From Chthonomonadaceae bacterium (GTDB lineage Bacteria; Armatimonadota; Chthonomonadetes; Chthonomonadales; Chthonomonadaceae): a stretch of 48,820 nt of DNA. Positions 16,704-23,273 of the stretch are shown here, one piece after another; the stretch's first letter is position 1; the number at the start of each line of letters is the position of its first letter. The notes under the pieces are model-generated. The model worked only from the letters and a program-made list of their open reading frames with translations, did no database searches and was not told the DNA's origin. The DNA lies in assembly GCA_027459665.1 (NCBI GenBank), contig DAIDHN010000029.1, positions 1-48,820 on the forward strand. Reading direction: 5' to 3'. A program made the position numbers and the translations under genes.

Positions 16704-17909
16704 TCAGTTTTTGCGTGCTGTTTGTTCCTGCTGTGCAGCTGCCGTCTGATTCTGTGCCTGCACGATAGCTGCCCCGAAAGGCGCCGGAATCCTCGGCCCT
16801 CCCTCCCAAATGCGTGTAATGCGCCCATTTGCATTGATAAGGTAAGTAACCGGCACGCCCTGCAGGTTGCCAAAATCGTGCAGCAGGCTGCTGTCGGCGA
16901 TAATTTGAGGGTACGTAATGCCGCTGCTGCTGCAGAACCTGCTTACCGACTGCGCACTGCCATCTGCCGCAATGCCATACACCTGCACGCCCTGCTGCTT
17001 GAACTGCCGGTATGCAGCTTCTATCTGGGGCATTTCTGCAATGCATGGGCCGCAGTTCAGCCCCCAGAAATTGAGTAGTGCCACATGCCCCCTGAGTGTG
17101 GAATTGCTTACAGTGTTTCCCTGCAGAGTAGATGCAGTGAAGCGGGGACAGGGGTCTGTGCGGGTAATGGCTGGAGGCTGCATACTGCGAAAAGAAGCAT
17201 CTACCTTCCAGGCTGTTTTTTTGCCTGCCCACCATTTCAGCCATTGCTGTGTAACCGCATTGCGCTGGTACCTGGGCGCTATGCGTTTAACATGCCAGTT
17301 GTTGCCGGTAATGCTGCAGAGAGCCAGTGTTGCAAACTGAACGGTATTTGGATCTTTGCTGCCCAGAGCGCTGCACAGGCTGGGAACAACGTCATGGGCC
17401 AGCGCTGTGTGCTTTTTGTGCCTTTCTGCCCACTGGGTCAGCAGGCTTGCTGCTTCTTCTGCCTGCCAGGGGTCGGGGTCTGCAAGTTCGGCAGCAAGCA
17501 TGTGTATTCCGGCGTTGAAATCGAGCTGCGGCAGCGCTTCCAGCGCTCTCTGGCGCACATCGCTGTCTTCATCATGCAGCGCCTGCTCTACAATCTGAAC
17601 TGCCTGTGTAGGGGCGGCGTGCATAAAGGGCGTGTGTTCGTACAGTGAGGCGGTCTGATCGATGGCGGCGTAGCGCAGCCTTCGACTGCTGCTGTCGCTC
17701 ATGCGTTCAAGCAGTGCCAAACGGTTTGCAGAAGGGGTTTTTTGCAGCATTGTTCTCAAGGCAGTCAGGCTTTGCTGTCTGTTGTCATACAGGAGTCCAC
17801 CCGGGCTGTGCAGTGTTTCCATGCGGTATGCCAGCGCCAGCGTGATAGCAGCCGTGCCTGCCAGCAGCCAGAGTGGCTTCAAGACCGTCCCCGCAGATTT
17901 CGCCTGCAT
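16704..17909 (-). CDS. HEAT-repeat/TlpA-type thioredoxin membrane-anchored protein
   Basis: A 401-residue protein. The start at 17909 is favoured by AAAGGAG 9 bases upstream; the open frame extends to 17969. An N-terminal membrane helix (LWLLAGTAAITLALAY) is followed by HEAT-like helical repeats (~60-200: LLERMSDSSSRRLRYAAI, ALHDEDSDVRQRALEAL, ELADPDPWQAEEAASLL). From ~250 there is a TlpA/ResA-like thioredoxin domain with active site CGPC (286-289) and cis-Pro motif GVPVTYL (351-357). It is probably an envelope thiol reductant working in the periplasm, with the HEAT part binding a partner. The pairing of these domains is notable. Confidence 0.85.
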   Translation of the reverse strand: MQAKSAGTVLKPLWLLAGTAAITLALAYRMETLHSPGGLLYDNRQQSLTALRTMLQKTPSANRLALLERMSDSSSRRLRYAAIDQTASLYEHTPFMHAAPTQAVQIVEQALHDEDSDVRQRALEALPQLDFNAGIHMLAAELADPDPWQAEEAASLLTQWAERHKKHTALAHDVVPSLCSALGSKDPNTVQFATLALCSITGNNWHVKRIAPRYQRNAVTQQWLKWWAGKKTAWKVDASFRSMQPPAITRTDPCPRFTASTLQGNTVSNSTLRGHVALLNFWGLNCGPCIAEMPQIEAAYRQFKQQGVQVYGIAADGSAQSVSRFCSSSGITYPQIIADSSLLHDFGNLQGVPVTYLINANGRITRIWEGGPRIPAPFGAAIVQAQNQTAAAQQEQTARKN

Positions 17910-18084
17910 GTGCCTGTGCTCCTTTTGATGTAAAAACAATTTTGCCTCTCTTATTACTTTACCATACAACAGTACTGCTCATTTTTTGTACATAAAAAAG
18001 TTATGCAGTCAGGCAGGAAGCCTGCGTAGAAAAAAGAAAATAATGTGGTGTGCTCTGCCCAATCTGCGAAACGAGGTGAACAGT

Positions 18085-18842: not shown

Positions 18843-19793
18843 TCAGCTTCCCGGATTGAGTACCAGAATGACCTGGTATCTATTGAGAAAACCGTACCGC
18901 TGGTTGAGGCTGAGCAGGCGGTCGGCGTCACTGCGGCTGATTTCCACATCGTTCTGGCCAGGCAGCATGCCTCCATTCACTGCTCGCAGCACCAGCGGAT
19001 GGCTGCCGGCCCGGCGCAGGCTGCGTGCGCTCTGCATTGAGTTTGCGTATACGGCAATGCCATGGTCTATCACATAGTTCGGGTTTGCCTTCACGGTTCC
19101 CCACACTTCGCTGCCATTAGAGAGGAGTATTTTGGGGCTCATGCTTCGCTCTACCCTGAACCCTCTTGCATCGATGATAACCGAAGTGTACGGCGTGTCG
19201 GTTTGCTGGTTGTCGCTGGCGCTTTGCAGTGCCTGCACCGGTGAAGGCTGTGAAACGGAGTCTGCTGGAATGCTGCTGTTGTTCAGGCCGTTTTCTGGAA
19301 CTGGTTTGAGCAGCGGTGGCAGAAAGACTCCGGCTACGCTTCTGCCGCTGCCATACATGGGCAGCGCCACCGTGACCTGCACAGCCTGGTCGCGCCCGAT
19401 TCGTACTGTGCGTTCACTCACCACCTGCGCGCCTTTTATCAGCCCCTGCACATGGGCGCGTATCACGCTGCTTTGGGCCATGTAGTCTGCCCCTGTAATG
19501 CGCGCGTTGATGTGAATGCCCTTGATTACCATGAGCAGGTTTTTGAGGGCATCCAGCTCAGCATAGTCGCGCGCTTTCAGGTAGGCTACAGCATCGTTGT
19601 GTGCATTGCGCGGAATAGCGCCCATGCCTTCCGCCTTGAGTACCGACCTGGTCCAGTTGATATGACCGTAGCTGCCCACGTTTTGGATATCATCCTGCGG
19701 GCGATTTCCGGCCATTGCAGCCGAAAGAGTGAAAGTGCAGAGGGCCAGCAAAACAATTGCACCCGAAGCAGGCCGTTTATATATGTGATGCAT
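18843..19793 (-). CDS. Exported LPP20-like envelope protein (third gene of envelope operon)
   Basis: A 316-residue protein. The start at 19793 follows GGAGG with good spacing. A signal peptide (GAIVLLALCTFTLSAAMA) leads to an LPP20/FlgP-like domain (YAELDALKNLLMVIKGIHI...VRAHVQGLIKGAQVVSER...VQVTVALPMYG). The last ~115 residues (IIDARGFRVERSMS...GSHPLVLRAVN...LNRYQVILVLNPG) are homologous to the C-terminus of the CsgG-like protein two genes upstream. The gene start overlaps the previous gene by 17 bp. Role unknown, probably part of an envelope or surface assembly. Confidence 0.75.
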   Translation of the reverse strand: MHHIYKRPASGAIVLLALCTFTLSAAMAGNRPQDDIQNVGSYGHINWTRSVLKAEGMGAIPRNAHNDAVAYLKARDYAELDALKNLLMVIKGIHINARITGADYMAQSSVIRAHVQGLIKGAQVVSERTVRIGRDQAVQVTVALPMYGSGRSVAGVFLPPLLKPVPENGLNNSSIPADSVSQPSPVQALQSASDNQQTDTPYTSVIIDARGFRVERSMSPKILLSNGSEVWGTVKANPNYVIDHGIAVYANSMQSARSLRRAGSHPLVLRAVNGGMLPGQNDVEISRSDADRLLSLNQRYGFLNRYQVILVLNPGS

Positions 19794-20967
19794 GATGAGT
19801 ATTCCTCCGGTTTGAGAAGAGAGAGTGGAGCGGATGTGCCGCTGCGCTGTGCGCTGCACGGCAGATAAGAATCGGGCCGCGGGGGGGCTTGAACATGAGT
19901 TGATAGCCATCGGGCAGCCTCAGTTCTTTCAGTTTGCGCTGCAGTCTGCGCAGCGCCATGCGTGTGCGAAATCGAATGGTTAGCTCGCCTTGTTTTGCTT
20001 CTATATCTTGTATGCCTGCAAAGCCTGTCCAACCGGAAAGTGCAGCATAGAGCGGGTGGTGCAGTCTTTCAGGCAGCCCCGCCACTATCAAGTCTGCTGT
20101 ATAGCCTTCGTATCTTTCCTGCGCCCATCGTGCAAGCAGCGCCGGGGTGATGTTTGCCTGCTGTTCCATTTGCGCCGCTGCTTCTTCTGCTGCACGCATG
20201 CCGGCATCCCGGTTGCCCAGGTAGCTGAACTGAGTGGCCTGGGCGCTGCCTGCCAGTATGGTTTGGCCGGATGCTTCCAGGTTGATCTGCCATTTCAGCC
20301 ATGCCTTGCAGGCAGCCACTTCTCTGCCTATGCCGTAGGGCGAATCTGCGCCGTTGCCCATGTGTACCACAGGCTGACGCCGCAGCACTGCCGACAGGCC
20401 GATTTCTGCCATGCCTGGCGTTGTCATTACCCGGTAGCCCTGCTGCTGAAGCCAGGCGGAAAGCGCGGCCTGCACGCTTCGGCTGGCTTCAGCGTTTTGC
20501 GGGTGTACAACCACGCGTATGCGCGGGTATTGCAGGTCGTGCAGCAGGTCTTTCATATCGCTGAGGCTTTTAGCCAGAGAGAGAAGTGATACCTGAGCCA
20601 CTATTTTCAGTCTGAGTATTTTGCCGTGCAGCGGCGGCGGCAGGCTCTGTATCTGTTCTGAACCGGGCACCTCATGCCAGGTTTGTATGAAGCCCTGCAC
20701 CAGCCCCTGCAGGTGGGTGTGTACGGTGCGGTAGCCCTGTGCAATGGTATCTGAGCGAAGAAACACGCCGGTTGCCTGCTCTACCGCATTGGTTTTTGCA
20801 TTCCAGAGTGCGCTGCTTTCAGCGGCTTCTGCACTGCTGCCCAAAGCTGCCTGCCCTACAGCGGTTACTGTTACTGCGGCTGGGGCATTTTGTGCATATG
20901 CCGGCATGCTGCAGAGCAGTGCAGCGCAGAGCAGCATGTTCAATGCCCTGGGTCGATGAGTATGCAT
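19777..20967 (-). CDS. Exported LPP20-like protein (second gene of envelope operon)
   Basis: A 396-residue protein with signal peptide (ALNMLLCAALLCSMPAYA). Residues ~30-130 (VTVTAVGQAALGSSAEAAESSALWNAKTNAVEQATGV...VHTHLQGLVQGFIQTWHEV) follow the LPP20/FlgP-like pattern also seen in the next gene. A second region (LQYPRIRVVVHPQNAEASRSVQAALSAWLQQQGYRV...) resembles a TolB/CsgG-like alpha/beta domain. It overlaps the upstream gene by 28 bp and the downstream gene by 17 bp, so the three are very likely co-translated. Function inferred only as envelope structure or trafficking. Confidence 0.7.
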   Translation of the reverse strand: MHTHRPRALNMLLCAALLCSMPAYAQNAPAAVTVTAVGQAALGSSAEAAESSALWNAKTNAVEQATGVFLRSDTIAQGYRTVHTHLQGLVQGFIQTWHEVPGSEQIQSLPPPLHGKILRLKIVAQVSLLSLAKSLSDMKDLLHDLQYPRIRVVVHPQNAEASRSVQAALSAWLQQQGYRVMTTPGMAEIGLSAVLRRQPVVHMGNGADSPYGIGREVAACKAWLKWQINLEASGQTILAGSAQATQFSYLGNRDAGMRAAEEAAAQMEQQANITPALLARWAQERYEGYTADLIVAGLPERLHHPLYAALSGWTGFAGIQDIEAKQGELTIRFRTRMALRRLQRKLKELRLPDGYQLMFKPPRGPILICRAAHSAAAHPLHSLFSNRRNTHHASHI

Positions 20968-22334
20968 ACCCGGTAATTCCAGAGAAAATGGTTTTGCCTG
21001 TTGGCCCTCAGTATTCGCCGGGCGGTTCTGCTGCTTACCACCACGTTGCCATTCTGGCAGCTGATTGCATTCACCCGCAGGGGGTGTGAGCCAACATGCA
21101 CTGCGCTTGCAGTATCGTGTACATAAAAGGCTGTTCCGTTTTGCTCTACATAAGAGGGCGACGGCATGTGATTGGGGCGCGGGTAAATCTCGTTGCCGTT
21201 TTCGTCATAAATGGTAAAGCTCATGCTGCGGTTAAGCCCAAGTCCGCGGGTATCTATCAGCAGGCCGGTGGGTGCATTGGGTGCGATTGCGGGCGGAATA
21301 GCCACGTTTGCAAGCACTGCCTGTGTACGCTGCGCTTCGAGATGCTGCAGGCGCGCTACCAGTGTTTCGACGTAGGTCCAGGTAGCAACCTGATTGGGGT
21401 AGAGCATTTGTGATGCATGCCAGATGTTTTGCTTTACTGCCACAATAACGTAGGGCAGCGCCCAGAAGGGCACTCGCGCTGCATCGGGCAGATGAAGGCT
21501 GCCGCTGTCGGTAAAGAAGCGATGAGGAAACAGTGTGCGCATAACAGCTACCAGCACGCGTATTCGCGTTACTGCTGAATAGGGATGCGTAACGGTAAAG
21601 AAGCTTTTTGCACCTCCCAGCCTATTGGTAAGGCTTCCCATTGCTTCTTCATCTACTATGCCGTTGGGCGGGCCGAATGGGAATGGGGTCTGGCTGTCTG
21701 AGGCAAGTATGGGCGGAATGCTGCGTGTTGGCTGGTCTGTATCTGATGTGCTGTATTCGGCCGGCGGGTAGGTGGCCTGCTGCGCCGCTCGATGTATTGT
21801 TCCCTGCCCCTGTCCTTTCAGCACCAGATGTCGGCCGGTGATTTCAAGGTGAAATCGCTCTGCCAGTTTGTTTACCAGATCGAGGATGTTGTAAGATGGG
21901 CCGCTTACATTGGCGGCGCCCTGCGGTTCGAGGCGGCCTGTGTGTACATCGAGCAGCCTTGCATTGATGATCATAATGCCGTCGTGGCTCATGTAGCTAC
22001 CCACCACCAGCCGGTCTGCGCCAATGAGCCGCCCCAATTTTTGCACCTGCTGTGGTGCGGTGAGGCCGGTGGCCTGCAGCCGCAGCTCGGTGAGTGCGCG
22101 CCCAATTTCACTTCTCTCTACCATGCGCAGGTAAGGCGACTGTGCCAGGTCGGTGAGCAGGGTGTCGGAGATAAAACGACTCATGGTATGGCTGCTGCCG
22201 TCGAAATCGGCAACGGCAATGGCTACCCCCTCGATGGATGCTGGAGCATTGTGTTTTTGTGCAAGCACGGCATCGGGCAGCAAGAGCAGAGCGCCGAGCA
22301 GGGCGCAGCAAAGAGTGCGGCGAAAATTGAGCAT
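20940..22334 (-). CDS. CsgG/TolB-like exported protein with SLH-like segment (first gene of envelope operon)
   Basis: A 464-residue protein starting at 22334, with GAGGAG 9 bases upstream. Order: signal peptide (1-~25, ALLLLPDAVLA); a CsgG/FlgO/TolB-like alpha/beta domain (~36-140: IAVADFDGSSHTMSRFISDTL...MVERSEIGRAL...GADRLVVGSYMSHDG...NARLLDVHTG); a linker; an S-layer-homology-like segment (~255-330: VTRIRVLVAVMRTLFP...FTDSGSLHLPDAARVPFWALPYVIVAVKQNIW and the start of a second repeat); and a C-terminal domain (~358-464) shared with the third operon gene. It probably attaches to the cell wall or S-layer region. Confidence 0.75.
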   Translation of the reverse strand: MLNFRRTLCCALLGALLLLPDAVLAQKHNAPASIEGVAIAVADFDGSSHTMSRFISDTLLTDLAQSPYLRMVERSEIGRALTELRLQATGLTAPQQVQKLGRLIGADRLVVGSYMSHDGIMIINARLLDVHTGRLEPQGAANVSGPSYNILDLVNKLAERFHLEITGRHLVLKGQGQGTIHRAAQQATYPPAEYSTSDTDQPTRSIPPILASDSQTPFPFGPPNGIVDEEAMGSLTNRLGGAKSFFTVTHPYSAVTRIRVLVAVMRTLFPHRFFTDSGSLHLPDAARVPFWALPYVIVAVKQNIWHASQMLYPNQVATWTYVETLVARLQHLEAQRTQAVLANVAIPPAIAPNAPTGLLIDTRGLGLNRSMSFTIYDENGNEIYPRPNHMPSPSYVEQNGTAFYVHDTASAVHVGSHPLRVNAISCQNGNVVVSSRTARRILRANRQNHFLWNYRVCILIDPGH

Positions 22335-22644: not shown

Positions 22645-23273
22645 ATGAAAGACCTTCTGGTTCTGGCAGCCGATGCAGATATGGAGGCTTTTTTAAGAGA
22701 ATTGTGTCGCAGGCACAAGGCGCTTGGTATAAGACCTGTGACAACAGACATTAAGAGGCACCCCATGCACGATCCTGGAATGGTAAAGGATGGTGCAGAG
22801 CTAGCGAGAATGCAAAAGGGGGAGTACATGCGTGTTCTTTTGATGTGGGATCATCGAGGTTCTGGGCAAGAACAAAATATGCCCAGCGCCGTAGCTGATG
22901 AAATGCAAGGCAGACTGGATATGTGCAGCTGGCGGGAAAACAGCCGTGTGGTAATTATTGACCCGGAATTGGAGTTGTGGCTTTGGCATTGTACGCCAGC
23001 CATTGCAAGGCATTGGGGCAAGAGTGTGGGGGAATTGGAAGACTGGGTAAAGATTATGCGTTGAGCTTGAAACGGAATGTAGAGAGCATAAGAAGGGAAA
23101 AACCGAAAGAACTGTTTGAATACATTGCCCGGTACATGCTGAGAACCTCCCTTTCTCCTGCAGACTTTGCCGCCATTGGCAAACTCGCAGGTGACGCAGG
23201 GCTTTTACGATGCACTTCCTTCTCAGTTTTGGCAGATGTGCTGCGGCAGTGGTTTCCTGTGCAGCCCTGCTGA
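22645..23273 (+). pseudogene. Frameshifted gene resembling a defence-associated ~200-residue family
   Basis: Two overlapping frames together make one protein. The first (22645-23064, MKDLLVLAADADMEAFL...VVIIDPELELWLW...VGELEDWVKIMR) ends prematurely. The matching C-terminal part lies in another frame, from about 23050 to the stop at 23273 (REKPKELFEYIARYML...LRCTSFSVLADVLRQWF). From memory, this order (VADxxME, GIRP...DI..HP..DPG, MxDHxGSG, DPELExWxW, KPKEALE, LRxC...F..L...LxxWF) belongs to a family annotated in methylation-associated defence contexts (MAD4-like); that name is a weak recollection. No slippery heptamer is visible, so it is probably a broken gene or a sequencing error. It abuts the recO stop convergently. 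Confidence 0.6.

Follow-up and report, generated by a model that had tools for sequence, protein, structure and literature searches.

The flagellar outer rings known as H rings and basal disks have, to our knowledge, been described mainly in Proteobacteria and Campylobacterota, and two of their building blocks, FlgO and FlgP, are lipoproteins. In Vibrio fischeri, flgP, flgO and flgT are reported to be neighbouring genes in two predicted transcription units, mutants being amotile in soft agar (PMC3948606), and the FlgO, FlgP and FlgT products are described as forming the Vibrio H ring (PMC6375700). For the FlgP/FlgT family, an insert between the helix and the second strand of the SHS2 domain is reported to correlate with ring formation (PMC12222027). 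Here, we compare with these systems a locus of three genes (the trio) at positions 18843-22334 of a 48,820-nucleotide stretch of DNA (hereafter the window), which corresponds to positions 1 to 48,820 of contig DAIDHN010000029.1 of a Chthonomonadaceae bacterium (phylum Armatimonadota, assembly GCA_027459665.1). A first-pass annotation had taken it for a CsgG/TolB-like, S-layer homology (SLH)-like and LPP20-like envelope complex, perhaps a surface-assembly or secretion device. Predicted folds and domain content instead make the trio a FlgO/FlgT/FlgP-like set with an SLH part and not a CsgG channel, because the CsgG pore hairpins are missing. This architecture is well supported, ring formation is likely, and the odds of a flagellar use are about even or somewhat better.

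Three genes on one strand

The locus is filled exactly by three minus-strand open reading frames (ORFs):

20940..22334, minus strand: gene 1, FlgO/CsgG-like, SLH-like and Tp0624-type exported protein, 464 aa
19777..20967, minus strand: gene 2, FlgT-like exported protein, 396 aa
18843..19793, minus strand: gene 3, FlgP/LPP20-like and Tp0624-type exported protein, 316 aa

All three proteins have signal-peptide-like, cleavable-looking N-termini (judged by eye), which agrees with the earlier view that they are exported. The overlaps from which the first-pass annotation deduced co-translation (28 bp between genes 1 and 2, 17 bp between genes 2 and 3) are real in the window but peculiar to its genome. 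With start codons chosen by hand, 16 related loci show gaps of 0 to 36 nt between genes 1 and 2. The distance from gene 2 to gene 3 could be measured in 13 related loci and amounts to 14 to 93 nt in 12 of them (-92 nt in the other one). Given these gaps, shared transcription is likely and overlap-driven co-translation is no conserved feature. Promoter and terminator scans gave no excess over chance (one site where 2.0 were expected, and three where 5.3 were), no sigma-28-like promoter was seen upstream of gene 1 when the sequence was inspected by eye, and an NCBIfam search with the three window proteins returned only matches far below cutoff.

Gene 1: a FlgO-like protein with an SLH part

The gene 1 model (13 sequences, mean predicted local distance difference test score, or pLDDT, 73; predicted template modelling score, or pTM, 0.36) folds into three domains:

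21813..22232, minus strand: gene 1 domain A, residues 35-174, TolB-N/FlgT-M/CsgG core fold without pore hairpins (VIA structure comparison)
21321..21695, minus strand: gene 1 domain B, residues 214-338, SLH-type trimer with degenerate TRAE motifs (VIA, Pfam, motifs)
20943..21281, minus strand: gene 1 domain C, residues 352-464, resembling the middle domain (D2) of Treponema Tp0624 (VIA, profile)

Domain A shares its core alpha/beta fold with the TolB N domain, PelC, LpoB and CsgG. TolB, FlgT and PelC all outscore CsgG in structure comparison (VIA Z of 15.4 for TolB 2ivz_D, 14.1 for FlgT 3w1e and 9.6 for CsgG 6lqh_A); among the structure matches listed for gene 1 there is no FlgO structure, which is uninformative either way. 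With profiles, Pfam CsgG exceeds its cutoff in the window protein (34.8 bits, cutoff 20.8), covering 70 of 210 profile positions; with E up to 1 allowed, it is found in 15 of the 16 gene 1 members. TolB_N (20.9, cutoff 22.4) and FlgO (PF17680; 20.1, cutoff 22.6) fall just under their cutoffs in the window protein, and at the limit of E up to 1 FlgO matches every one of the 16 members (best 2.7e-9). The CsgG fold carries two transmembrane hairpins. Model residues 35-168 of gene 1 align with CsgG 47-249 (112 aligned; 134 residues versus 203), and the model strands 108-117, 120-129 and 134-146 are linked by short turns that leave no room for such hairpins. A CsgG-like pore was accordingly rejected, and with it falls the support for a secretion device. 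Domain A also differs from TolB in having no propeller and from CsgG in having no pore hairpins, and it is followed by an SLH-type domain.

Domain B is similar in overall fold to the SLH trimers of Sap (6bt4; VIA Z 9.8, 3.1 Å over 119) and SpaA (7sv4; Z 9.5, 2.8 Å over 115), and to an S-layer cytochrome (6qvm; Z 10.0). Pfam SLH does not match the window protein at E up to 10 and matches four of the 16 family members (best 1.6e-7); structure comparison together with these matches in relatives identifies an SLH fold. The pairing of a CsgG/FlgO-type domain with an SLH part, which the first-pass annotation had singled out, is real by profiles and by comparison of the model with solved SLH trimers. 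In known SLH domains, TRAE motifs bind pyruvylated polymer. Unlike in Sap and SpaA, the repeats of gene 1 are shorter and their TRAE-like motifs degenerate: the first Arg of the middle repeat is present in 13 of 16 members (not in the three f6 ones), and a second Arg (R259) is invariant. Since the motifs are degenerate, binding of a pyruvylated polymer is at most possible.

Domain C matches Tp0624 of Treponema pallidum (5JIR, chain 5jir_B; VIA Z 13.9, 2.4 Å over 109 residues, 27% identity; profile E 1.5e-8) in a region that by its position would be D2. A phmmer search of PDB sequences with the single gene 1 sequence gave nothing at E up to 1; profiles did match. Tp0624 is organised as D1-D2-OmpA, whereas in the trio the D2-type domain comes after SLH in gene 1 and after LPP20 in gene 3. 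The 2016 Tp0624 paper reports no structural analogue for D2 and D2 only together with D1 (PMC5104382).

The window genome also has a solo paralogue of gene 1 (G000:C11:21495-22904, loci L002 and L049; 40% identity, aligned nearly full length) that directly adjoins csaB, an S-layer pyruvyl transferase gene (TIGR03609, E 8.9e-80). As a general feature this linkage was rejected, being found at one of five solo-paralogue loci, that of the window genome only; csaB-type matches occur in 281 of the 291 genomes surveyed (see below), 245 of them over cutoff.

Genes 2 and 3: FlgT- and FlgP-like proteins

The gene 2 model (mean pLDDT 76, pTM 0.58) opens with an alpha/beta domain, followed by one of TolB-N/FlgT-M type and by a small third one:

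20587..20877, minus strand: gene 2 domain A, residues 31-127, FlgT_N/SHS2-like (Pfam in members; match to 9hmf_C)
20110..20532, minus strand: gene 2 domain B, residues 146-286, FlgT-M/TolB-N/PelC-type fold (structure comparison)
19849..20103, minus strand: gene 2 domain C, residues 289-373, small alpha/beta domain (model only)

The top two PDB matches in a Foldseek search are both FlgT, namely 8z5n_0 from the LPHT ring (1.4e-8) and 3w1e (1.0e-7), and they span 393 and 388 columns, respectively, which is nearly the whole chain. VIA aligns residues 32-338 with 3w1e (Z 10.1, 5.7 Å, 235 residues). Pfam FlgT_N matches three of 13 aligned members (best 0.0011) and not the window protein, and gene 2 reaches FlgP of Campylobacter jejuni (9hmf_C) at E 0.025. 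Gene 2 can be assigned the N and M domains of FlgT on the Foldseek matches, with low TM scores and a weak FlgT_N. Among the predicted folds of genes 1 and 2, TolB-N/CsgG-type and SLH-type folds are those that the earlier reading had anticipated; the pore hairpins of a CsgG channel are not there.

Two domains were delimited in gene 3:

19407..19640, minus strand: gene 3 domain A, residues ~52-129, SHS2 domain of LPP20/FlgP type, insert region included (profile alignment)
18846..19196, minus strand: gene 3 domain B, residues ~200-316, Tp0624-type and a homologue of gene 1 domain C (sequence)

A ten-member gene 3 profile matches C. jejuni FlgP (9hmf_C) at E 2.7e-7, without gaps over 76 residues, and three more lipoprotein/FlgP sequences at E 0.0036 to 0.043. 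The spacing of the FlgP insert region is kept in all ten aligned members (with a 1-residue gap in one), and by this alignment gene 3 has a predicted LPP20/FlgP SHS2 domain complete with the ring-forming insert. Pfam LPP20 does not match the window protein and matches four of the ten members (best 9.3e-4), which, with the FlgP match, upholds the LPP20-like part proposed at first pass. That annotation had recognised neither the FlgT-like nature of gene 2 nor the Tp0624-type C-terminal domain common to genes 1 and 3, which match each other at E 2.0e-10; the gene 3 copy matches Tp0624 5jir_B at a profile E of 6.3e-8.

How the trio compares with known rings

Like the Vibrio H ring set, the trio comprises three genes side by side for FlgO-, FlgT- and FlgP/LPP20-type products, with a FlgT fold for gene 2. 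Unlike it, the trio has an SLH-type domain on the FlgO-like protein and Tp0624-type domains on two proteins, runs in the order O-T-P, shows no clear lipid anchor and does not lie beside flagellar genes. The H ring encircles the flagellar L ring of Vibrio. With the basal disk of Campylobacter FlgP (9HMF), it shares the SHS2 domain with a ring-linked insert (in gene 3) and differs by the extra C-terminal domain of that protein and, again, by its lack of a clear lipid anchor. Because both a lipid anchor and flagellar linkage were looked for and not found, we do not place the trio within the H ring; it would rather be a new variant that works like it. In the PMC literature searched, we found no paper joining Armatimonadetes and FlgO, none joining CsgG, S-layer homology and Armatimonad, and none that names an LPHT ring.

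Conservation across Armatimonadota

The first-pass annotation had proposed conserved synteny in other Armatimonadota as a check, and in 291 genomes of the phylum (trio order judged by coordinates) the three-gene order is indeed conserved. It was found in 22 genomes, 17 of which have a full gene 1. In the other five (the f29 genomes G180, G187, G190, G191 and G194), gene 1 is shorter and no Tp0624-type domain could be detected in it. Contig ends truncate two further trios, in G007 and G199. In all, 21 genomes carry a strong gene 2 orthologue (E below 1e-70) and 22 a full-length gene 1. G238 has gene 2 and no full gene 1, and in G040 (locus L039) what follows genes 1 and 2 is a short LPP20-like match (E 5e-6) that lacks the C-terminal domain, a fuller gene 3 being on a separate contig. 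Gene 1 matches at E 1e-3 or better, many of them single-domain, occur in 28 of 61 genomes (the window's included). Among 20 fetched gene 1 loci, ten have genes 1, 2 and 3 in order on one strand, one (L038) has a contig that ends inside gene 2, and eight are solo gene 1 relatives or fragments. A pattern-limited scan of genome contigs found genes 1 and 2 adjacent at 12 of 12 loci and gene 3 at ten, the other two reaching the contig end; these loci are not independent of the 20 fetched ones, at least seven of the 12 having probably been sampled already. In two f15 genomes (G066 and G072), the set is permuted to gene 3, a larger protein and gene 2, and the larger protein has a weak gene 1-type match (E 3e-5 and 7e-6).

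Some related arrangements may be mentioned. An extra CsgG/FlgO-like gene lies directly upstream of f6 trios (L040 7572-8603, L061 2116-3147, L065 8966-9979 and others). In two f19 genomes, short ORFs of 171 and 184 aa with little beyond a Tp0624-type domain (L071 3640-4152 and L075 8657-9208) sit behind a gene 3 relative. In an f8 genome with FlgH (G228:C49:66435-68611), relatives of gene 2, gene 1 (N domain) and gene 3 are in the order T-O-P by coordinates.

A probable wall-anchored ring and its possible user

The window genome encodes, on another contig, FlgI, FlgH, FlgA, two FlgEFG-type proteins, FlgK, a flagellin-type protein, FliW and a rod-binding protein, with FliF elsewhere in the genome. 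FlgH, present in 185 of the 291 genomes, accompanies a strong gene 2 orthologue in every case (21 of 21). Once the five genomes with f29 trios are added, 25 of the 26 genomes with the set have FlgH, versus 160 of 265 others (Fisher p 1.5e-4). Within the window's taxonomic order, 9 of 19 genomes with FlgH and none of 12 without it have the set (p 0.005); these Fisher tests of FlgH against the set ignore shared descent. It is because genomes with the close form almost always have the L ring that the flagellum appears the most likely user.

Taking together the computed domain content, the folds predicted for genes 1 and 2 and the conserved gene order, we infer the following scheme: (i) gene 3 would polymerise through its SHS2 hairpin insert, (ii) gene 2 would seed the ring on the LP ring, (iii) the Tp0624-type domains of genes 1 and 3 would bind each other or a common partner, (iv) the SLH part, by which gene 1 goes beyond the FlgO plan, would tie the ring to a cell wall polymer and (v) the flagellum would most likely use it, which is the weakest step. 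A wall-anchored ring in the outer envelope is thus the probable product of the set. That the operon encodes a periplasmic, outer-membrane-side ring of FlgP-, FlgT- and FlgO-like subunits, with the flagellum as its most likely user, we estimate at a probability of roughly 0.52. A fuller version, with a FlgO-like subunit that has an SLH wall anchor in a flagellar outer-membrane ring and a ring module that also serves flagella-less relatives, is tentative and falls a little short of an even chance.

Several observations weigh against this ring proposal or its flagellar use. None of eight flagellar proteins of the window genome matches the fetched flanks of the trios (flanks of differing length), and 160 of the 185 genomes with FlgH lack the set. 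Weak gene 2 relatives occur with FlgH in 24 of 36 genomes, like the rest (p 0.47). FlgH and FliF are both absent from 17 of 77 genomes with gene 3-profile matches, some of which cover the Tp0624-type part alone; eight of the 17 match most of gene 3 (G058, G072, G073, G074, G075, G180, G218 and G240). The rearranged trio of G072 (95% complete) and the f29 trio of G180 (81% complete) are in genomes with neither FlgH nor FliF; the other permuted-set genome, G066, has FlgH. A regular-expression scan for a lipobox gave 0 of 17 for gene 1, 0 of 17 for gene 2 and one doubtful case of 14 for gene 3. As for the folds, the SLH match of gene 1 peaks at Z 9.8-10.0, below the value of about 13 that the tool advises for mostly helical folds. 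For the FlgT matches of gene 2, TM scores are low (0.28-0.38), perhaps owing to a different orientation of the domains, and single-domain proteins equal or exceed FlgT by VIA Z (up to 11.2).

Part of this evidence fits a non-flagellar reading, in which a ring or tether at the outer membrane, anchored to the wall, would for example surround another envelope machine or act as a general link between outer membrane and wall. Diverged relatives in genomes without FlgH and FliF, the G072 trio among them, speak for it, as do the absence of linkage with flagellar genes and the gene 1 paralogue adjoining csaB, whose product is the pyruvyl transferase of SLH ligands; yet the csaB neighbour is a single case next to a near-universal gene, and the close form of the set goes with FlgH in all but one genome. 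We regard such a tether as possible, if somewhat doubtful. Three exported proteins with shared ancient domains and no common complex, whose order is kept by descent alone, would explain why the trio domains are widespread in the phylum in other combinations. This is improbable, since the order is common to families f1, f3, f6 and f29 and flanking genes are not kept (in 12 loci compared, the sole recurring neighbours were an ABC-type ATPase and a prepilin-type family, both large abundant families judged by eye), and since genes 2 and 3, as well as genes 1 and 3, have domains in common. Least probable is a CsgG-type secretion channel specific to the phylum, for which the Pfam match argues, and against which stand its partial coverage, the short turns and the higher scores of TolB, FlgT and PelC.

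Should a flagellar ring with an SLH-anchored FlgO/FlgT/FlgP-like set exist in Armatimonadota, outer rings would be more widespread than described and could be wall-tethered by another chemistry; this would be another means of fastening the outer rings of flagella to the wall, and in a phylum distant from the ones with known H rings and basal disks. Whether the ring module predates flagellar use becomes testable through the relatives that lack FlgH and FliF.

Minor observations

Relatives of genes 3 and 2, on the same strand, are present on three contigs of G240, which has neither FlgH nor FliF (L074, that is G240:C72, and C49 and C92). In the window, a divergent ORF upstream of gene 1 (22645-23064, plus strand) resembles MAD4 of the methylation-associated defence system (NF047734, E 2.7e-34, 119 bits, cutoff 160). 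On the other side of the trio, the product of 16704-17969 (minus strand) has a ResA-like thioredoxin domain after an N-terminal part with a weak NblB match.

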